DNA of 64,000 nt from assembly GCA_024640305.1 (NCBI GenBank), contig JAHEFG010000044.1, forward strand, positions 62,001 to 126,000, written 5' to 3'. The translations under genes and the position numbers were made by a program. Position 1 is the first letter of the stretch, and the number at the start of each line of letters is the position of its first letter. Below are positions 1-8,264 of this stretch, piece after piece. Under the pieces are notes generated by a model. The model saw nothing but the letters and a program-made list of their open reading frames with translations, did not search any database and was not told the origin of the DNA. Origin of the DNA: Gammaproteobacteria bacterium. GTDB lineage: Bacteria > Pseudomonadota > Gammaproteobacteria > Steroidobacterales > Woeseiaceae.

Positions 1-1059
1 GCAATCATCGGTCAGGCCTTCCCGTATACGCCGATCGCCAATCCTTCGCGGTTCATACCTGATTGGACATTTGGCATTCGTGCCGACGAACTGCAGGCGC
101 TGATCGACAGTATTCTCAGTCGGGACAAGCCCGACGCGGTTGTCTTGCTGTCACACAACGGCATGGATGTCGATCTCAAGCTTGCCCGCGTGGTGACGGG
201 CCTGGACGCGATCCTGGGCGGGCATACACATGACGGTGTGTCTTCCCCAATCGTAGTAGAGAACTCATCGGGCAAGACGATCGTCACGAACGCTGGTTCC
301 AATGGCAAGTTTCTGGGCGTTCTGGATTTTGATTTTGGCGCAAGCGGCGTGCGGGATTTTCGCTATCGATTGTTACCGGTGTTTGCCAATCTGCTGCCGG
401 CCGATCCTGAAATGAGCGCCTACATTGACGGTGTGCGAAAGCCATGGTTGGACGCACTCGAAGAGCCGCTCGCGATTGCGGATCAGTTATTGTATCGGCG
501 AGGTAACTTCAACGGTACGTTCGACCAGATCATTTGTGATGCGCAAAGGGCAGTAGGCGATAGCCAGATCGCTTTTTCGCCGGGATTCAGATGGGGGACG
601 AGCGTTCTGCCCGGCGATACCGTGACCATGGAGCGGGTGCTCGACCAGACCTGTATAACCTATCCCGGAACCTACGTTCAGGACATGAGTGGCGAGCAGA
701 TCAAACTGATCCTGGAAGACGTCTGCGACAATCTGTTTAACCCAGATCCTTTCTACCAGCAGGGCGGAGACATGGTTCGTGTTGGCGGGATGAATTATGT
801 CTGTGAACCCAGGGCTGCCTCGGGGAGTCGCATTTCCAACATGACGCTGGAGGACGGGACTCTCGTTGATGCGAGCAAACGTTACCGGGTTGCCGGATGG
901 GCAACGGTTGGTAGCGAGGCGCCGGGCCCGCCGATATGGGCGGTTGTGGCGACTTATTTGAAGGATCAGAAGGTCGCGCGCATCGATAAGCTGGATACGC
1001 CAGTGCTGAAGGGCGTCGGTGCGAACCCGGGTCTGACAGAGTATCCCGGACAATACTGA
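1..1059 (+). CDS. soxB: SoxB thiosulfohydrolase, C-terminal part (5' truncated by window edge)
   Basis: Reading frame 1 is open from the first base to the TGA at 1057-1059, giving about 352 residues; the N-terminus and signal sequence lie outside the window. SoxB is the periplasmic di-manganese hydrolase that releases sulfate from the SoxY-bound thiosulfonate in the Sox thiosulfate-oxidation pathway. Visible metallophosphatase motifs include LLSHNG and GGHTHDG. SoxB-typical stretches are GQAFPYTPIANP, LYRRGNFNGT and GGDMVRVGGMNY, which separate it from ordinary 5'-nucleotidases. Other sox genes would be expected upstream, off the window. A secreted DsrE-like gene follows 12 bases later, probably in the same operon. 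Confidence 0.93.
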   Translation, partial: AIIGQAFPYTPIANPSRFIPDWTFGIRADELQALIDSILSRDKPDAVVLLSHNGMDVDLKLARVVTGLDAILGGHTHDGVSSPIVVENSSGKTIVTNAGSNGKFLGVLDFDFGASGVRDFRYRLLPVFANLLPADPEMSAYIDGVRKPWLDALEEPLAIADQLLYRRGNFNGTFDQIICDAQRAVGDSQIAFSPGFRWGTSVLPGDTVTMERVLDQTCITYPGTYVQDMSGEQIKLILEDVCDNLFNPDPFYQQGGDMVRVGGMNYVCEPRAASGSRISNMTLEDGTLVDASKRYRVAGWATVGSEAPGPPIWAVVATYLKDQKVARIDKLDTPVLKGVGANPGLTEYPGQY

Positions 1060-1071
1060 GGAGATGCTCGA

Positions 1072-1518
1072 ATGAGATGCAAATTACTAGTCGCACTGCC
1101 CCTGATTATTTGTGGTTTTCTGAGCGCTAATGTATTCGCGGAGGAGAGCGACAAACCGTTTGCCGAGGCACATATCGTATTGCAGCTTGCTGATGAGGAT
1201 GCCAGGTCACAATCGCGAGTGCTCAGCGTAGCCAATAACCTGATCAAACATTATGGCGGCCCCGATTTTGTCGATATAGAAATTGTCGCCTATGGCCCCG
1301 GGATAGCGCTGCTATATCCGGGCAATCCGAACCAGGAGCGCATTGCCAGCCTGCAGGTCAATGGAGTTCGTTTCGTAGGCTGTTTAAATACGATCGAGAC
1401 CATTGAACGAGAAACCGGTAAGAGGCCGCAACTGATTGCGACCGCCACTACGGTACAAACCGGAGTAGCCCGGCTGGTCGAGCGGGCGCAACAAGGGTTT
1501 GTGGTAATTAGACCCTGA
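1072..1518 (+). CDS. Secreted DsrE-fold protein (first paralogue)
   Basis: 148 residues with a signal peptide (about 1-23, ending NVFA) and a mature domain resembling the small secreted DsrE/DsrF-like proteins (COG1416 type). Its features are VLQLADED, IVAYGPGIALL, GVRFVGCLNTI with Cys104, and a C-terminal GFVVIRP. Cytoplasmic DsrE proteins carry or transfer persulfide sulfur on a cysteine; the function of secreted versions is not established. An AGGAG ribosome site lies just before the ATG. It follows soxB by 12 bases, which suggests a role with the periplasmic Sox system. It is a clear paralogue of 4592-5044 and of the C-terminal domain encoded at 3107-3820. Confidence 0.82.
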   Translation: MRCKLLVALPLIICGFLSANVFAEESDKPFAEAHIVLQLADEDARSQSRVLSVANNLIKHYGGPDFVDIEIVAYGPGIALLYPGNPNQERIASLQVNGVRFVGCLNTIETIERETGKRPQLIATATTVQTGVARLVERAQQGFVVIRP

Positions 1519-1543: not shown

Positions 1544-2059
1544 CTAACCAGCGAGCTCCAGTTTAGCTGCGACCGCGTCAATGCCCGCCTGGGCACAAGC
1601 GTGGTCAGCCTCCCCGCTGGGTGCGCCTGAGATGCCTATTCCGGCAACGATTGAACCCGACGCGAGTACCGGGATTCCACCCCCTATCATGAGTACATTC
1701 TCGATAAACCGGGCGCCCGATTGTGGCGACTCCGGTCCGGTTCGCTCGGCCAGCAGGAGGGTGTCAGCGCGAAAGCTGACAGCCGTCCAGGCTTTGCGCA
1801 CAGAGGTGTCCGGTGTATGCGGCCCGGCAAATCGGTCGCGCAGTACAACCTGCGCAACGCCCATGCGATCCACTACGGCGACGGCAACCTGAAAGCCCTC
1901 TGCCCGGCAACTTTTCAAAGCAGCTTGTGCCATTTCGAGGGCAACATCAGGGCTAAGCGACTGAAACTTGACCAGCTCGTCCTGCGCCAAAACAGGAGGC
2001 GCTAACTGACTGCCCAGAAGCGCCGCGAGAATCATCATCTTGTACCGATTCATCGTCAT
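1544..2059 (-). CDS. Secreted HbpS/GlcG-family (DUF336) protein
   Basis: 171 residues: signal peptide about 1-25 (ends PPVLA), then a GlcG/HbpS-like domain with the family's ALEMAQAAL, VAVVDRMG, RKAWTAVSF and IGGGIPV segments. Some family members (Streptomyces HbpS) bind haem and act as accessory sensors; others have no known role. A GGAG sits 8 bases before the ATG. It is the last gene of a leftward run (sigma factor, anti-sigma, binding protein, this gene) and converges on the soxB-dsrE pair. Ligand binding cannot be judged from sequence. The periplasmic location matches the rest of the operon. Confidence 0.85.
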   Translation of the reverse strand: MTMNRYKMMILAALLGSQLAPPVLAQDELVKFQSLSPDVALEMAQAALKSCRAEGFQVAVAVVDRMGVAQVVLRDRFAGPHTPDTSVRKAWTAVSFRADTLLLAERTGPESPQSGARFIENVLMIGGGIPVLASGSIVAGIGISGAPSGEADHACAQAGIDAVAAKLELAG

Positions 2060-2082: not shown

Positions 2083-3039
2083 TTACAACGGTTTGAGGCT
2101 GAGTTCCTCGCTTGTTGCGCGGATGAAACCATAACTTTCGTAGATGGCCTGGGCCTCATCACTGGCAAGGTAGGACAGGTAACGGGCCGCATTTTCAGCA
2201 TTGCGACCGTTCTTCATGTTGCCAATCGCATAATTGACCTTGTCGATCTTGTTCAGCGGTGCAGGGATAGCCACTCCATCGATGGGTCGTCCCTCCGCTT
2301 TGGCGTGCACGACTTCGGTTGTCCAGACGATGCCGACATCTGCCTCGCCCTTCTCGATGCGGTCAGGTGTTTCACGATGGTGGCGTGACGTGAACCAGGT
2401 CTTGCCTTCCACCGCCCAGCAGCTCTTGCATTCGGCACCGCCGGTGATTTTTTCATGCAACCCCAGGTCCTTGAGCATCTCGCTGCCATAGAATTTAAAT
2501 ATGCCTTCTGTCAGAGGATTGGGGTGCGACTGGACGAGGTCGTCACGGCCGAGATCCTCAGGACCCTTGATCCCTTTTGGGTTGCCTGCGGCGATCATCA
2601 GTTCGAGCTTGTTGTGAATATAAATCGCATATTCATCCATCAGACTCATACTATTGAGTTTCTTCAGATGGCCAATATTGACGCTTGCAAAAATGTCCGG
2701 ATTCATTGCGGTTTGCTGTCCATCGATCTCGCCCTGTTTCAGCAGTTGTCCTTTCAGGATCTGTCCGGGCGGAATCGTCTCAACGTAAACGGATTCGATA
2801 TCCGGATTTTTCTTTTGAAAATCTGTAATTAATTCCTGCATGACCATGAATTGATTGCCGGCGAGGTACATGACCAGGTCCGCAGTATAAGAATCTTCCA
2901 CCGAGCCGTACTCGACTTCTCCATTGGTGTGAAATGTTCGGTAGTCTTTGCCGTGACCGGCATCTTTGGCTTCTGCTATGGCCTGGCCAGCGAGCCCCAT
3001 GGTCAATGCAACAAACAACAGCTTCAACGAAGTCTTCAT
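2083..3039 (-). CDS. Periplasmic solute-binding protein (ModA-like type 2 PBP), ligand unknown
   Basis: About 318 residues from the ATG at 3039; a GGGAGGA lies 9 bases upstream. In-frame ATGs at 3048 and 3075 are possible but badly placed for that site. A signal peptide (MKTSLKLL...QAIA) precedes a binding-protein fold resembling ModA and related oxyanion-binding proteins, with segments such as KKNPDIESVYVET, GEADVGIVWTTE and ARYLSYLASDEAQ. An unusual CKSC pair (residues 204-207) and a nearby HH pair are not typical of the family and could bind metal or sulfur. No ABC permease or ATPase is adjacent, so it may act as a sensor or donor rather than a transporter subunit. Confidence 0.8.
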   Translation of the reverse strand: MKTSLKLLFVALTMGLAGQAIAEAKDAGHGKDYRTFHTNGEVEYGSVEDSYTADLVMYLAGNQFMVMQELITDFQKKNPDIESVYVETIPPGQILKGQLLKQGEIDGQQTAMNPDIFASVNIGHLKKLNSMSLMDEYAIYIHNKLELMIAAGNPKGIKGPEDLGRDDLVQSHPNPLTEGIFKFYGSEMLKDLGLHEKITGGAECKSCWAVEGKTWFTSRHHRETPDRIEKGEADVGIVWTTEVVHAKAEGRPIDGVAIPAPLNKIDKVNYAIGNMKNGRNAENAARYLSYLASDEAQAIYESYGFIRATSEELSLKPL

Positions 3040-3106
3040 TTCGGACATTCCTCCCAAGGAGCGCGGTAATCGCACTCTATTTTGATTATTCAGGTTTTTC
3101 GATTAT

Positions 3107-3820
3107 TTAGATTTTTTCGTATTTCCAACCGGCCTGCATGCGTGTGACAACGCGGTCAAGCGCCGTATAGTCTGGATTCGTATAAGGAACAAGCTCTACC
3201 TTCACGCCTTTCTCTTCGAGCCGTTGGATTGTTTTGGAACAGGCATAAAAGACGACATTGCTTCTCTGTAAAGCGGTGATTTCCGCAGCAAACGGAGTGA
3301 CATCACTGCGCAAAAGGTCCAGCCCCTGTTCATTGGCAATAATTTCTACCTGACGAAAGTCATCTTCGTCGGCCGATTCGAGCAAAAACCTCGCGTGCTC
3401 CAATGCCGCGAGCATTTGTTCGGGTTCGCCACTGACGACGTGTAACAGGTAGTTGTCGATTTCTACTGCTGGATCGGCGGCCACGCCGGCTGTTACAACC
3501 TCGTTTCTCTGGCCTGGGCCGAAGTAGTTTTGAGCAACGATACCTGCAGATAGTCCGATTGCGAGCAAAAAACCGGCGGCTATTACTTTGCCAAACAGGC
3601 TTGCGCGTGCAAGCGGCGCCCCAGCCAAACGCCTTGCTGGTGGGACGTCATCGTAAGCATATTTTATGAGTTCCTTGAGCTTGCGTTGCTGACACAAACG
3701 ATGATCCAGATCAGCCGATCGTTCAGTTTCATTGAACAGGCGGCTTTTCTCTTCGGGATCCAGTTCGCCGTCTACAAAAGCATTCAATTGCTCTTCGGAA
3801 AAATGTTCGTCCCTTTTCAT
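3107..3820 (-). CDS. Membrane anti-sigma factor fused to a periplasmic DsrE-like domain
   Basis: 237 residues. The N-terminus (about 5-60, FSEEQLNAFVDGELDPEEK) looks like the sigma-binding part of ECF anti-sigma factors. It keeps H40 and C43, but the full H-x3-C-x2-C zinc motif is missing. One membrane segment (about 77-96) follows. The C-terminal part (about 118-237) resembles the two secreted DsrE-like proteins nearby: a central VEIIANEQGLDLL, then VVFYACSKTI with Cys194, then VKVELVP. The gene overlaps the sigma factor stop by 4 bases (ATGA), so the two are translationally coupled. By topology the DsrE domain is periplasmic. That it senses sulfur is inference. Confidence 0.82.
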   Translation of the reverse strand: MKRDEHFSEEQLNAFVDGELDPEEKSRLFNETERSADLDHRLCQQRKLKELIKYAYDDVPPARRLAGAPLARASLFGKVIAAGFLLAIGLSAGIVAQNYFGPGQRNEVVTAGVAADPAVEIDNYLLHVVSGEPEQMLAALEHARFLLESADEDDFRQVEIIANEQGLDLLRSDVTPFAAEITALQRSNVVFYACSKTIQRLEEKGVKVELVPYTNPDYTALDRVVTRMQAGWKYEKI

Positions 3821-4377
3821 TTTACTCTCTTCAGGTTTGTTGCTTTGTTCAGTTGTTGCTGTGGCCTGACATCAACCAGGAGTTCCCGCAGTGCACGTCG
3901 TCCGCGGCATAGGCGGCTCATGACTGTTCCCACAGGAACCTCCAGAGTTTCAGCGACCGTCGCGTACGTAAATCCTTCAAGATCGACCAGGGTTATCACC
4001 TGGCACTGCGGCAAAGGCAGCTGGCTCACGGCGCGGCGTACTTTGTCCACTAGCTGTTGCTCCTCGCTTTCATGTTCCGGAGTTCTATTGTTAACGATGA
4101 CGAGTTCTTCGGCCGACAAGACTTCGCGCTTGGCTCGGTAGTAATCCTTCAGGCAATTAGACAGGATCCTGAATAACCAGGCCTCGGCTGCTCCGACATC
4201 TTTGAGCTGTTTCTGGTTGTTCAGCGCCTTGTAAAGCGTTTGTTGCACCAGGTCATCTGCCAGGTGCGGGTTGTGCGTCCATGCGTACGCCATTCGATAC
4301 AGGCGATCCCTGCTATTGCCAACCAGCTTCTTTAAAGCGCGGCGTTGGCTTATTCCGGTGAAAGGGTTACCAGCCAT
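3817..4377 (-). CDS. ECF-type RNA polymerase sigma factor
   Basis: 186 residues with the two-domain layout of extracytoplasmic-function sigma factors. Region 2 covers about 20-82 (RLYRMAYAWTHN, ADDLVQQTLYKAL, AWLFRILSNCLKDYYR). Region 4 covers about 112-168 (LPLPQCQVITLVDLEGF, VPVGTVMSRLCRGRRAL). There is no extra C-terminal domain. It heads the leftward operon with its anti-sigma factor and is divergent from the dsrE-porin-thioredoxin-yeeE operon. The usual inference is that it activates its own promoter and the flanking genes. Promoter boxes could not be assigned with confidence in the 214-base divergent gap. Confidence 0.93.
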   Translation of the reverse strand: MAGNPFTGISQRRALKKLVGNSRDRLYRMAYAWTHNPHLADDLVQQTLYKALNNQKQLKDVGAAEAWLFRILSNCLKDYYRAKREVLSAEELVIVNNRTPEHESEEQQLVDKVRRAVSQLPLPQCQVITLVDLEGFTYATVAETLEVPVGTVMSRLCRGRRALRELLVDVRPQQQLNKATNLKRVK

Positions 4378-4591
4378 ACAAACAGAGCCCCTAATGCAAT
4401 GACGAGACTATCCAGTGGACATAAAGACGTTACACCAACGGCTTTTATTCCGCGTTTTCGTCCGAACTTGAAGATTAAGGGATTATTTCGGGTCGTTCCA
4501 TCGTCAGTACCTCTCGTAGCCGTAGATCAAGTGTTCGTAGCGGCTTGCGGGTCATGCCGTCATGGCACTGTGATTAGTCAGGAGGTCGATC
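4378..4591. promoter_or_regulatory. Divergent regulatory region between ECF sigma operon and dsrE-porin operon
   Basis: This 214-base gap separates two operons that start away from each other, so it should hold at least two promoters. On the minus strand a GTAACG (around 4429-4434) with a CTCGTC some 20 bases downstream is loosely ECF-like. No matching pair is evident on the plus strand. A strong AGGAGG lies before the ATG at 4592. Boxes remain unassigned. Confidence 0.45.
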
Positions 4592-5044
4592 ATGAAATTT
4601 CGAAAAATATTGAAACTGGGTAGCTATTTGCTCGTGTTATGCGCATTCGCTGCACCCCAGACGCTATTGGCACAGGACGCGAAACCGTTCGCGGAGCACA
4701 AGTTCGTATTGCAGATCAGTGACATGGATCCGAGTAAGCAAACGCTTGTTCTGAATGTCGCGTCCAACATTCTGAAACATTACGGACAGGATCAGGCCGA
4801 AGTTGAGATTGTTGCGTTTGGCCCCGGGCTGCGGTTGCTCTTTGAAGACAATAGTAACAGCGGCCGTATCGACGGCCTGGTGGACAGCGGGGTACGGTTT
4901 TTCGCTTGCCAGAACACCATTAATAACATGTCAAAAATAATCGGGGAGCCGATCAAGGTGAACGCTCATGCCACGTCCGGCAAGGGTGGCATCGTGAGGA
5001 TCAAGGAACTGGTTGATCAGGGCTACATGCTGGCCAAGCCTTAA
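4592..5044 (+). CDS. Secreted DsrE-fold protein (second paralogue)
   Basis: 150 residues: signal peptide about 1-28 (ends TLLAQ), then a domain closely matching the product of 1072-1518, with KPFAEHKFVLQISD, NILKHYGQD, VEIVAFGPGL, GVRFFACQNTI (Cys106) and a C-terminal GYMLAKP. The conserved cysteine lies in the same context as Cys194 of the anti-sigma factor. AGGAGG is 6 bases before the start. It is the first gene of the rightward operon with the porin, thioredoxin-like and YeeE genes. A plausible role, unproven, is to bind or carry a periplasmic sulfur species or to act as the sensor domain's partner. Confidence 0.84.
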   Translation: MKFRKILKLGSYLLVLCAFAAPQTLLAQDAKPFAEHKFVLQISDMDPSKQTLVLNVASNILKHYGQDQAEVEIVAFGPGLRLLFEDNSNSGRIDGLVDSGVRFFACQNTINNMSKIIGEPIKVNAHATSGKGGIVRIKELVDQGYMLAKP

Positions 5045-5082: not shown

Positions 5083-5097
5083 ATGGGGAGAAATTAC

Positions 5098-6516
5098 GTG
5101 AAACATAAATACGATCGAAAACAGATCCTTTCAGGGTCGCTGTTTATGGGGTTGCTGGCACTATCCGCCAACGCTCTCGGAGCTAACTGGCTCACGCTAC
5201 AGGGCACGGAGCCTGAAGGCGCGGAGCAGCTTGGCAAAGTATGGGGATTCGTCCAGGTGCAGTACCAGGATGATTCAAGCGACCCGAATGGGGCCGGCGG
5301 ATATATTCCACCGAAATTGATCGGCCCGAACCTCGAAACTCAGTCGGCGTTTAACGTCAATCGTGCGCGCATTGGCGTTCGCGGCGTCGCGATGCCGATC
5401 GACCAGAAAATTAACTATTTTCTGCTGCTCGAAATGGGTAACAACGGTATTACGGCACCCGGCGACTCTTTTGCCAAGGCAACCGATGCAAGCGTTACGC
5501 TAAATCATCTGGACGGTGCGCGATTCAGACTGGGCCTGTTCAAGTTCCCGGGCTCTGAAGAAGGTTTGCAGGCGATCCACGTGTTCGACTACATTAACTT
5601 CACCTGGGTAACCAATCAGATGCTGCTCGAGCGTTTTCCAAACGCAAATTACACGCCAAACAACGCACCGCAGCCTTTGCCGCCTGGCTCACCATTGAAC
5701 GGGTTTGAAGAGAGCGTCGGCGCTTTCCGTGATGTCGGCGTACAGATGTTTGACTGGTTTAATGTTGGCAACGACTGGGAACTGTCTTACGCGATTATGG
5801 TAGGTAACGGCAACGGCCTTAATTTCGGTGACAACGACGACAATAAGGACACGTATCTTTATGCCTCAGCGGAGAAGGTCTTCGGCGGCAGTGGACCGCG
5901 CCGCCAGGGTCTTAAGTTCTTTGCGTGGTCGCAGAGCGGCAAGCGCACCGCAGATTTAAGTGCCGATACTTGTATCAATGGCAATGTCTTTCCCGCTTGT
6001 GGCGCAGGCGGGTCTGGCCGCATAAGTACTGTTTACGACCCCGTTGAGTATGATCGAGATCGTATGGGTTTTGGCGTCAAGTACCTGCGTAACGGTTGGC
6101 GCGCTACGGCGGAATATATGTCGGGCGAAGGTATGATCTTCCAGGCTCCGCATAACGCCAGTTTCGGCATCGGACCAGGGCAGGGAATCCCCGGCTCACC
6201 GGCCGGTAACGGTGCATTTGCAGAGGCCAACGGCTATTACATTGAAGGTGGTTATCGTATTCCGAAAACGAAGTGGGAGATTGATCTGCGCTACGATCAG
6301 TACAATCGCCTTGACGGCGACCAGTTCGAAATCGAGTTCAAGCGCACGACATTCGGCGTACAATATTTCTTCAATCCACGGGTTCGACTGGCAGTGAATT
6401 ACGAAGCCCGTTCAGGCAATGCGCCCAATTTCGGACCGGGAGCAGGGCCGAATGGGAACGTCGACGGAATCGATGATCGAATCGCAGTGCAACTCACAGC
6501 AATTTGGTCGCAATAG
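5098..6516 (+). CDS. Outer-membrane porin, OprO/OprP-like (phosphate-selective porin family)
   Basis: About 472 residues from the GTG at 5098, preferred over the ATG at 5083 because GGGGAG sits 7 bases upstream and the upstream ATG overlaps that site. A signal peptide ends near ALGA. The rest alternates amphipathic strands (VWGFVQVQYQDD, FNVNRARIGVRGVA, WEIDLRYDQYNRLDG, VRLAVNYEARSG) and ends in WSQ, close to an aromatic-ended beta-barrel signature. It resembles the OprO/OprP anion porins. Given its neighbours, passage of thiosulfate or another sulfur oxyanion is plausible but inferred. It is the second gene of the sulfur-related rightward operon. Confidence 0.82.
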   Translation: MKHKYDRKQILSGSLFMGLLALSANALGANWLTLQGTEPEGAEQLGKVWGFVQVQYQDDSSDPNGAGGYIPPKLIGPNLETQSAFNVNRARIGVRGVAMPIDQKINYFLLLEMGNNGITAPGDSFAKATDASVTLNHLDGARFRLGLFKFPGSEEGLQAIHVFDYINFTWVTNQMLLERFPNANYTPNNAPQPLPPGSPLNGFEESVGAFRDVGVQMFDWFNVGNDWELSYAIMVGNGNGLNFGDNDDNKDTYLYASAEKVFGGSGPRRQGLKFFAWSQSGKRTADLSADTCINGNVFPACGAGGSGRISTVYDPVEYDRDRMGFGVKYLRNGWRATAEYMSGEGMIFQAPHNASFGIGPGQGIPGSPAGNGAFAEANGYYIEGGYRIPKTKWEIDLRYDQYNRLDGDQFEIEFKRTTFGVQYFFNPRVRLAVNYEARSGNAPNFGPGAGPNGNVDGIDDRIAVQLTAIWSQ

Positions 6517-6528
6517 CCTGGAGCTAAC

Positions 6529-7125
6529 TTGACATCCAAGGTAGTAGCAAGGGCAGTGCCGGCAGTATTCCTGCTGGCACTGTCCGTTCTGGTGACGGGA
6601 GTTGTGGCCGCTGGCGAACCGGAAACGCGGGATCCGCGCGAGTTTTTTTTCGAGCAGACTTTTGGTGATTTGCCTGAAGAAATGCAGGCTGCCCGAGAAC
6701 AGGGAAAAATTGGAATGCTCTTGTTCTTCGAGGCGGAGTCATGCCCGTACTGCCAGTACATGCTCAGGAAGATATTCAATCAAAAGCATGTTCAGGACTG
6801 GTACCGCGAGCGTTTCGTCAATATCGCTGTGGATATTCACGGCGATGTCGAATTGAAGGACTTTGACGGCATTACACTGCCATCCAAAGTGTTTTCGGAC
6901 CATCGCAGGGTATTCCTGACACCCGTCGTGTCGTTTCTAAACCTTAACGGCGTCGAGATATATCGCCACCTTGGCATGACCAAGACGCCCGAGGACTTTC
7001 TTTTGCTGGGTGAGTACATCGAAGGCGAGCACTATTTTGACACCGAGTTTAAGGTTTTTGCGAAAGCCCGCGGCTTGAAGAATGAGGATGACATATTGAT
7101 CACACCAGCGGCAGAAACCGAATGA
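6529..7125 (+). CDS. Periplasmic thioredoxin-like protein (CPYC)
   Basis: 198 residues with a TTG start; CTGGAG lies about 6 bases upstream and no ATG fits. An N-terminal hydrophobic signal or anchor (about 8-28) is followed by a thioredoxin fold with the redox pair CPYC (Cys72, Cys75) in EAESCPYCQYM and a cis-proline-like TPVVSF segment. SoxW-type thioredoxins of sox clusters keep Sox proteins reduced, and this gene may play that part. An eight-T run near 6643-6650 encodes three Phe residues but the frame is intact. It overlaps the YeeE gene by 4 bases. Confidence 0.85.
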   Translation: MTSKVVARAVPAVFLLALSVLVTGVVAAGEPETRDPREFFFEQTFGDLPEEMQAAREQGKIGMLLFFEAESCPYCQYMLRKIFNQKHVQDWYRERFVNIAVDIHGDVELKDFDGITLPSKVFSDHRRVFLTPVVSFLNLNGVEIYRHLGMTKTPEDFLLLGEYIEGEHYFDTEFKVFAKARGLKNEDDILITPAAETE

Positions 7126-8264
7126 TGGAGTGGGAGCCTGTTTACCGAGTAGCCATGCTCGGCTTTCTGATTGGCATTCTATTTGGCGCGGTCTCAAACA
7201 AGACCAATTTCTGCACTATGGGTGCGGTCAGCGATTGGGTGAACATTGGTAGTAAGGATCGGCTTAGAGCCTGGTTCATGGCTATTGGCGTCGCAATTCT
7301 CGCAACGCAGATTATGCAGGCACGGGGTCTGATCGATCTGGGCGAGGTTATGTACCTGACGCCGAATTTTGGCTGGCTGGGGCACGTGCTCGGTGGCCTG
7401 GTGTTCGGTATCGGCATGACCCTGGCGTCGGGTTGCGGGCAACGGACATTGGTTCGCGTTGGTGGCGGAAACCTCAAATCGCTGATAGTCATGATACTGC
7501 TGGGACTAACAGCCTACATGACGATGCGCGGCTTGCTGGCGCTGGTCAGGGTGAATGCAATTGAGGTGACGAATATTAATTTGTCCGGATCTGGTATTCC
7601 GGATCAAGGCATAGGCACGCTTATCGCGGCCGCTACAGGAACAGAGAATACGGCGCTTGTAAATTGGATCGTCACCGCAATTTTGGGCGGTGGCCTGATT
7701 GCGTATGCGGTTGCTGCGAAGTCTTTCTGGAGGAGTTTCGACAACGTATTGGCCGGTATTGCCATTGGTTTGATTATTCCTGCCGGCTGGTATGTGACGG
7801 GCGTAATCGGTTTCGACGACTTTGATCCCGTGCGCCTCGGGTCGTATACGTTTGTTGCTCCGACGGGCGAGAGTCTCATGTACTTGTTGACGTTTACCGG
7901 TTCGACAATCAGTTTCGGGGTTGCCGCGGTATTTGGCGTAATCCTGGGATCGTTTCTCTACGTCATATTGACCGGCAAGTTTCGCCTGGAGACCTTCACT
8001 GACCGGGGCGATATGGTCCGACATATCTTCGGCGGAGTCGCCATGGGGTTTGGTGGCGTACTGGCTCTGGGTTGCACAATCGGGCAAGGTGTTACCGGAA
8101 TGTCGACGCTTGCACTGGGGTCTTTCTTGACCTTGCTGAGCATAATTTTTGGAAGTGCGCTGACCATGAAGATCCAATACCACAGGCTAGACGACATGTC
8201 GTTCTTTGGTGCCTTGAGGCAGTCGCTGGCAGACATGAAACTTTTCCCGCCGTCGCGTCATTAA
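7122..8264 (+). CDS. YeeE/YedE-family (TsuA-like) sulfur transporter
   Basis: 380 residues, mostly hydrophobic helices. The three cysteines expected of YeeE/TsuA thiosulfate carriers are visible in conserved contexts: C31 in KTNFCTMGA, C105 in LASGCGQRTL and C318 in LALGCTIGQG. In the characterised family member these relay thiosulfate across the inner membrane. The ATG overlaps the preceding stop (ATGA), so it is co-translated with the thioredoxin-like gene. It closes the rightward operon. The cargo here is presumably thiosulfate or another sulfur species. Confidence 0.9.
   Translation: MMEWEPVYRVAMLGFLIGILFGAVSNKTNFCTMGAVSDWVNIGSKDRLRAWFMAIGVAILATQIMQARGLIDLGEVMYLTPNFGWLGHVLGGLVFGIGMTLASGCGQRTLVRVGGGNLKSLIVMILLGLTAYMTMRGLLALVRVNAIEVTNINLSGSGIPDQGIGTLIAAATGTENTALVNWIVTAILGGGLIAYAVAAKSFWRSFDNVLAGIAIGLIIPAGWYVTGVIGFDDFDPVRLGSYTFVAPTGESLMYLLTFTGSTISFGVAAVFGVILGSFLYVILTGKFRLETFTDRGDMVRHIFGGVAMGFGGVLALGCTIGQGVTGMSTLALGSFLTLLSIIFGSALTMKIQYHRLDDMSFFGALRQSLADMKLFPPSRH

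Follow-up and report, generated by a model that had tools for sequence, protein, structure and literature searches.

The closest described relatives of the system reported here are the ECF26 sigma factors. The sulfite-responsive members from Sinorhizobium and Starkeya recognise promoters with GGAAT at -35 and CGTC at -10 (PMC6527743), and promoters of ECF26-type systems have been tabulated (PMC6180224). Sulfite is the reported signal of the ECF26 RpoE4-type systems (PMC6527743), a response of ECF26 systems to sulfite-generating thiosulfate has been described (PMC3511301), and their anti-sigma factors carry an RsiW-like periplasmic domain (PMC6180224). In Hyphomicrobium, sox genes are under the control of SoxR and sHdrR, which are sulfane-sulfur-responsive repressors of the ArsR type (PMC10451225, PMC12423496). 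Sensing of extracytoplasmic sulfur by regulators has been described as poorly understood (PMC11582611).

A gene pair encoding an ECF sigma factor and a membrane-bound anti-sigma factor with a DsrE-fold domain was identified in the window, which is the whole stretch of 64,000 nucleotides that was analysed (Table 1). The pair resembles the ECF26 systems of Sinorhizobium meliloti (RpoE4/EcfR4) and Starkeya novella (SigE) in its sigma–anti-sigma operon and GGAAT...CGTC promoter (PMC6527743, PMC6180224), in the homologous N-terminal anti-sigma domain and helix, and in its predicted output, sulfur metabolism (PMC3511301). In contrast, the RsiW-like periplasmic domain of those systems has no match to the DsrE part found here, and their main target is sulfite oxidase (sorT/sorAB), whereas a sox-dsrE-porin gene set is the predicted target in this case. 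Among the ECF26 features tested, the promoter and the anti-sigma domain fit and the RsiW-like domain does not. At a Sinorhizobium locus comprising sigma, anti-sigma and sulfite oxidase genes (L239), the anti-sigma factor matched the family of the window protein over residues 3-90 only (E 1.5e-11), and a perfect GGAATA-N16-CGTC site was present upstream of the sigma gene. The sigma factors linked to DsrE clustered together (support 86/96) not far from the ECF26-type sigma factors in a tree that was only roughly resolved. From the promoter motif and the homology of the anti-sigma domain it is inferred that the output half is of the known ECF26-like kind and that the input domain and the regulon differ; ECF group profiles were not applied.

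Like SoxR and sHdrR, the system would place sulfur oxidation under the control of reduced sulfur through cysteines. Unlike these cytoplasmic DNA-binding repressors, which need sulfur import (SoxT, PMC11582611), it would consist of a transmembrane sensor and a sigma factor. No description of an anti-sigma–DsrE protein, an ECF–sox link, or a periplasmic DsrE-like protein connected to a sigma factor was found in the literature searched. The opinion of an initial sequence-only reading that no ECF system built this way had been described therefore holds within that literature, with the output half closely resembling known ECF26 systems. A text match to "dsre" in PMC3511301 was rejected, as there was no DsrE passage and the string was probably DsRed.

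Table 1. Features of the sigma/anti-sigma locus and its surroundings. Coordinates are window positions unless a locus is given.
Feature	Position	Strand	Basis
ECF sigma factor, 186 aa	3817..4377	-	Pfam and NCBIfam matches above cut-offs; sigma-upstream synteny
Single-pass anti-sigma factor with DsrE-fold C-terminal domain, 237 aa	3107..3820	-	Translation, model, 37- and 53-member alignments
Cytoplasmic anti-sigma domain, residues about 1-60 (helices 9-16, 22-34, 36-57)	3641..3820	-	Model; Sinorhizobium anti-sigma match
Transmembrane helix, residues 75-99	3524..3598	-	Model; positive-inside charge pattern
DsrE-fold periplasmic sensor domain (sensing role inferred), residues 121-237	3110..3460	-	Foldseek, VIA-align
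Codon of Cys194, sole cysteine after membrane helix	3239..3241	-	Invariant in relatives; aligned with secreted DsrE Cys
Promoter GGAATA-N16-CGTC of sigma operon, 48 bp before sigma start codon	4426..4451	-	Sole perfect match in window
Promoter variant GGATTA-N16-CGTC of dsrE-porin-trx-yeeE operon, 86 bp before dsrE start	4480..4505	+	Second-best window site, score 14.3
Promoter GGAATAATTCTGATGCGTAAATCGTC of sox operon, 49 bp before soxX	L022:8871-8896		About 3.1 kb upstream of window start
soxB, 3' part	1..1059	+	TIGR04486
Secreted DsrE-like P0004, final gene of sox operon	1072..1518	+	phmmer MTH1491 E 2e-8, Cys aligned
HbpS/GlcG-like secreted protein	1544..2059	-	HbpS-like E 2e-31
Periplasmic solute-binding protein (ModA/CysP-like)	2083..3075	-	SBP_bac_11 E 3e-34; genus synteny
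Secreted DsrE-like P0003, 150 aa, signal peptide, divergent from sigma gene	4592..5044	+	phmmer MTH1491 E 6.5e-9
Outer-membrane porin	5083..6516	+	Porin_O_P (Pfam)
Secreted thioredoxin-like protein	6529..7125	+	Thioredoxin_2 E 7e-14
YeeE/TsuA/SoxT-type thiosulfate or sulfur importer	7122..8264	+	TsuA models E 2.7e-31, below equivalog cut-off

The sigma and anti-sigma genes overlap by 4 bases and are both on the minus strand. The sigma protein scored above the curated cut-offs for Sigma70_r2 (47.3 bits, cut-off 24) and Sigma70_r4_2 (52.7 bits, cut-off 25.7) in Pfam and for TIGR02937 in NCBIfam (73.3 bits, cut-off 42.9), and thereby satisfied the ECF criterion of having regions sigma2 and sigma4 only. 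A sigma homologue was located directly upstream of the anti-sigma gene in 80/80 contig loci. The anti-sigma protein satisfied the class I criterion, with an N-terminal helical domain, an adjoining sigma gene and one membrane helix. Inhibition of the cognate sigma factor by this protein is inferred and is not supported by any experiment.

An AlphaFold model of the anti-sigma protein was built from an alignment of 53 sequences (mean pLDDT 85.6). It showed three cytoplasmic helices (residues 9-57) followed by a membrane helix (75-99), and then, after a linker of low confidence (102-117), an alpha/beta domain (121-237). The low pTM of 0.53 is expected because two domains are joined by a flexible linker. 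The charge around the helix (4.7 vs 2.2 Lys+Arg), with a positive-inside pattern in 47 of the 53 relatives, supports a topology with the N-terminus in the cytoplasm and the C-terminus in the periplasm. The match of the N-terminal domain to zf-HC2 of Pfam was weak, and the HxxxCxxC zinc motif was absent from all 53 aligned relatives.

Pfam and NCBIfam profiles alone gave no significant DsrE call for the C-terminal domain or for the secreted neighbours. The Pfam DsrE profile PF02635 reached 12.5 bits with the anti-sigma protein and 13.2 bits with P0003, both under the gathering score of 22.7, and did not match P0004; fold prediction was therefore needed. The C-terminal domain matched MTH1491 with a TM score of 0.90 and an rmsd of 1.8 in Foldseek and with a Z of 18.4 in VIA-align, and the next matches were ST0148, YchN, DsrEFH, TusBCD and other DsrE-type entries. 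The top ten solved structures were all of the DsrE/TusBCD/YchN type, followed by a drop to Z 7.1. MTH1491 had already been found with the anti-sigma protein by sequence (phmmer, E = 5e-4). In its likeness to MTH1491, ST0148 (COG1416-like), YchN, DsrEFH and TusBCD, the fold spans the full domain (Z 12-18), and the conserved cysteine is shared with MTH1491 by way of the secreted relatives. Unlike the DsrE/DsrF-like proteins, which are soluble, this domain is periplasmic, and a membrane helix joins it to an anti-sigma domain; sulfur transfer by it is inferred only. The architecture of a cytoplasmic anti-sigma domain, one helix and a periplasmic DsrE-fold domain is shown by computation, through the model, the fold search and the relatives.

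Cys194, located in the model at the end of a strand and before a helix, was invariant in 37/37 and 53/53 aligned proteins, and none of the 53 had another cysteine after the helix, although their identity to the window protein is only 29-41%. That a single invariant cysteine lies on the periplasmic side is thus a computed result; that it senses or carries sulfur is inferred and has not been shown. Residue-level equivalence with the catalytic or sulfur-accepting cysteine of DsrE/TusD was not obtained by profile alignment. The motif around Cys194 reads VFYAC-SKTI in the anti-sigma protein, FFAC-QNTI in P0003 and FVGC-LNTI in P0004, and profile–profile comparison placed cysteine on cysteine (E = 4e-21). 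On the cytoplasmic side, Cys43 (window 3692-3694) was also invariant in all 53 aligned relatives, though a few distant relatives lack it. Two sequence patterns served as seeds for the contig scan, which makes the conservation of L12-D17 and GW-Y in its matches partly circular; neither pattern included Cys194, Cys43 or His127.

What the sequence-only reading had observed about the proteins was confirmed. It had proposed an ECF sigma factor paired with a transmembrane anti-sigma factor, and both genes are present, with the sigma protein passing the Pfam and NCBIfam cut-offs. It had placed the helix at about residues 77-96 and a DsrE-like region at 118-237, close to the limits given by the model. 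The resemblance of the C-terminal domain to the flanking secreted proteins was confirmed, and the cysteine in the context F-x2-C-x2-T-I is common to all three proteins exactly as stated. Of the checks it had suggested, structural comparison of the C-terminal region with the DsrE fold was passed and was decisive, the profile search left Pfam DsrE below its cut-off with MTH1491 detected by phmmer, and the survey of similar anti-sigma genes and their neighbours yielded a family with conserved sigma and secreted-DsrE synteny.

Full-length fusions of the anti-sigma and DsrE parts were found by profile searches in 66/369 genomes drawn from the class, which is inferred from organism names to be the Gammaproteobacteria in the GTDB sense, including the former Betaproteobacteria. 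When named genome contigs were scanned, 223 relatives were confirmed, and the top 80 of these belonged mostly to sulfur oxidisers, including Thiobacillus, Sulfuricella, Sulfuriferula, Sulfuritalea, Sulfurimicrobium, Thiohalobacter, Thiogranum, Sulfurisoma and unnamed relatives. SoxB (E below 1e-100) was present in 65/66 genomes with the fusion and in 85/303 without it, so that an association with SoxB is shown for this class-wide draw, without correction for phylogeny. In a phylum-wide draw, full-length fusions occurred only in the same class, and more distant genomes matched the DsrE part or the anti-sigma part alone. Part of the association with SoxB is consequently explained by shared descent. 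In plasmid records, the anti-sigma protein had no relative.

Outside the class, matches to the DsrE part only, at about 100 bits, were seen in genomes such as G1029, G958 and G942, which indicates that domains closely related to the sensor also occur outside the complete anti-sigma fusion. Two pairs of sigma and DsrE-anti-sigma genes, in tandem or close by, were observed at loci L128, L151 and L117 and in genomes G620 and G504; these may be duplicated sensors with different inputs. A Thiobacillus-type locus (L148) was found in a record titled Rhizobium sp. MAG, which is likely mis-binned or mislabelled.

The sox operon next to the gene pair has the order soxX-soxY-soxZ-soxA-lipoprotein-soxB-dsrE(P0004), with SoxY, SoxZ and SoxA identified by Pfam. 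The conserved surroundings of the family are likewise shown by computation. A divergent secreted DsrE gene was present within 1.5 kb in 53/71 loci with enough sequence, and a divergent porin homologous to the window porin was present in 30/62 loci.

Hexamer–tetramer pairs were counted in the 250 bp upstream of 87 sigma genes. GGAATA-N16-CGTC preceded 77 of the 87, whereas in shuffled sequence the most frequent pair was counted only 3 times. One perfect site was observed in the window against 0.06 expected, and the variant GGATTA-N16-CGTC before dsrE was retained in 6/7 genus members. Among DsrE upstream regions, 38/47 contained the motif, compared with 0 in shuffled sequence. The motif matrix is circular for the sigma upstream regions and not for the dsrE or sox regions, and motif conservation across genomes was not corrected for relatedness. 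Five perfect sites were found in the genome to which the window belongs (2.8 Mb, 78% complete), one of them before soxX, and a perfect site preceded soxX in 6/6 genus members whose contig covers this gene.

In 40 more distant genomes with SoxB, strong sites before soxX or soxB were detected in 8/20 with the fusion vs 0/20 without it. The remaining 12 of these 20 distant fusion genomes had no strong site next to soxX or soxB, so control of sox is not universal or proceeds via other promoters. In eight mostly complete fusion genomes, an extended pattern (CGTCT) gave 24 sites, compared with 2 in reversed controls. Fifteen of the 24 were located before homologues of the module genes (four sigma, four soxB, two soxX/soxY, three YeeE, one porin and one thioredoxin), and one further site preceded tusA. 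No perfect extended site was found in G447, yet the fusion is present there. We were thus able to show a shared promoter motif by computation. The sequence-only reading had suggested that the sensor sets transcription of the soxB, porin, thioredoxin and YeeE genes; this is supported by the shared motif, and no transcriptional effect has been shown.

A perfect motif was also seen before soxX in G458 (L186, site 1867), although no clear DsrE-anti-sigma fusion was found there; its anti-sigma factor possibly carries another sensor domain. In unrelated genomes (L217, L232), perfect sites were followed by genes for signal-peptide proteins of ~160 aa, which had no Pfam match and were DsrE-like by eye only.

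On balance we favour, by a modest margin and on evidence that is entirely computational, a model in which an ECF26-like sigma/anti-sigma switch with a DsrE sensor turns on thiosulfate oxidation by the Sox system. At rest, the membrane anti-sigma factor would hold the sigma factor through its cytoplasmic helical domain. The predicted signal is thiosulfate, polysulfide, or sulfane sulfur delivered in the periplasm by SoxYZ or the secreted DsrE proteins, which may act as co-receptors or sulfur carriers. A reactive Cys194 would take up sulfur, the DsrE domain would change its shape or assembly, and the sigma factor would be released, the signal being passed through the helix or leading to proteolysis. 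The freed sigma factor is predicted to read GGAATA-N16-CGTC promoters and to turn on its own operon, in positive feedback, together with soxXYZA-lipoprotein-soxB-dsrE and dsrE-porin-trx-yeeE. The nature of the signal, the loading of Cys194 with sulfur and the way in which the sigma factor is released are all inferred. In a bolder reading, which is slightly less likely than not, the protein would be a periplasmic persulfide sensor whose Cys194 is loaded with sulfane sulfur directly or by secreted DsrE, and a large set of sulfur-oxidising Gammaproteobacteria, as GTDB defines the class, would rely on the pair as their main sox switch.

Three other explanations were considered. The DsrE domain of the same switch might be a docking site for the secreted DsrE proteins, acting as signal carriers or as feedback inhibitors via mixed assemblies, with no direct uptake of small sulfur species. 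In its favour, no other neighbour is as well conserved as the secreted DsrE gene, which carries the sigma motif (counts given above) and whose product is clearly homologous to the sensor domain, cysteine on cysteine. DsrEFH and TusBCD are multi-subunit assemblies, which also counts for docking. However, in 18/71 loci no divergent DsrE gene was recognised within 1.5 kb, and we regard this explanation as unlikely. It is equally improbable, in our estimate, that the switch responds not to sulfane sulfur but to sulfite or to a general oxidation of thiols, with an S-sulfonate or disulfide of Cys194 serving as a stress signal. The promoter consensus and anti-sigma domain are those of the ECF26 RpoE4-type systems, for which sulfite is the reported signal (PMC6527743), and since these relatives need no DsrE domain to detect sulfite or its products, the signal here may be sulfite. 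Against this, the sensor domains differ, as the limited match of the Sinorhizobium protein indicates, and the predicted regulon consists of genes for sulfur import and Sox oxidation, not for sulfite oxidase.

The least probable explanation, and a very unlikely one, is that the DsrE domain is a structural remnant without a sensing role, that the switch answers envelope stress or growth phase, and that its presence in sulfur oxidisers results from shared ancestry. The confinement of fusions to one class in the sample is consistent with this, and no biochemistry exists. However, Cys194 is invariant despite the low identity of the relatives to the window protein, and the motif marks sulfur genes specifically.

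Under the favoured model, the DsrE domain is a specific candidate for the sensor: it has a single cysteine that can be tested, the promoter is defined and a regulon is predicted. Several of the genera that have the system can be cultured (Thiobacillus, Sulfuricella, Sulfuriferula, Thiohalobacter, Sulfurisoma). The system would represent an exchange of sensors in evolution, in which the ECF26-type sigma factor, the anti-sigma domain and the promoter were kept and a sulfurtransferase-type fold became the input. If the model is correct, a sulfur-carrier fold has become a signalling domain, which would provide a ready-made biosensor for thiosulfate or sulfane sulfur and would explain how many sulfur-oxidising bacteria notice sulfur outside the cytoplasm.

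Downstream of the anti-sigma gene, the solute-binding gene (after a gap of 32 bp) and the HbpS-like gene are likely members of the sigma operon. The gaps between these genes are short, and no ABC transporter genes adjoin them. Homologues at the same position were found in genus members only, and it is possible that the two proteins are part of the sensing operon. Elsewhere in the same genome (L023:11462-12442, contig C41), a second, different ECF sigma gene was observed directly downstream of a canonical DsrE gene that scored above the Pfam cut-off.
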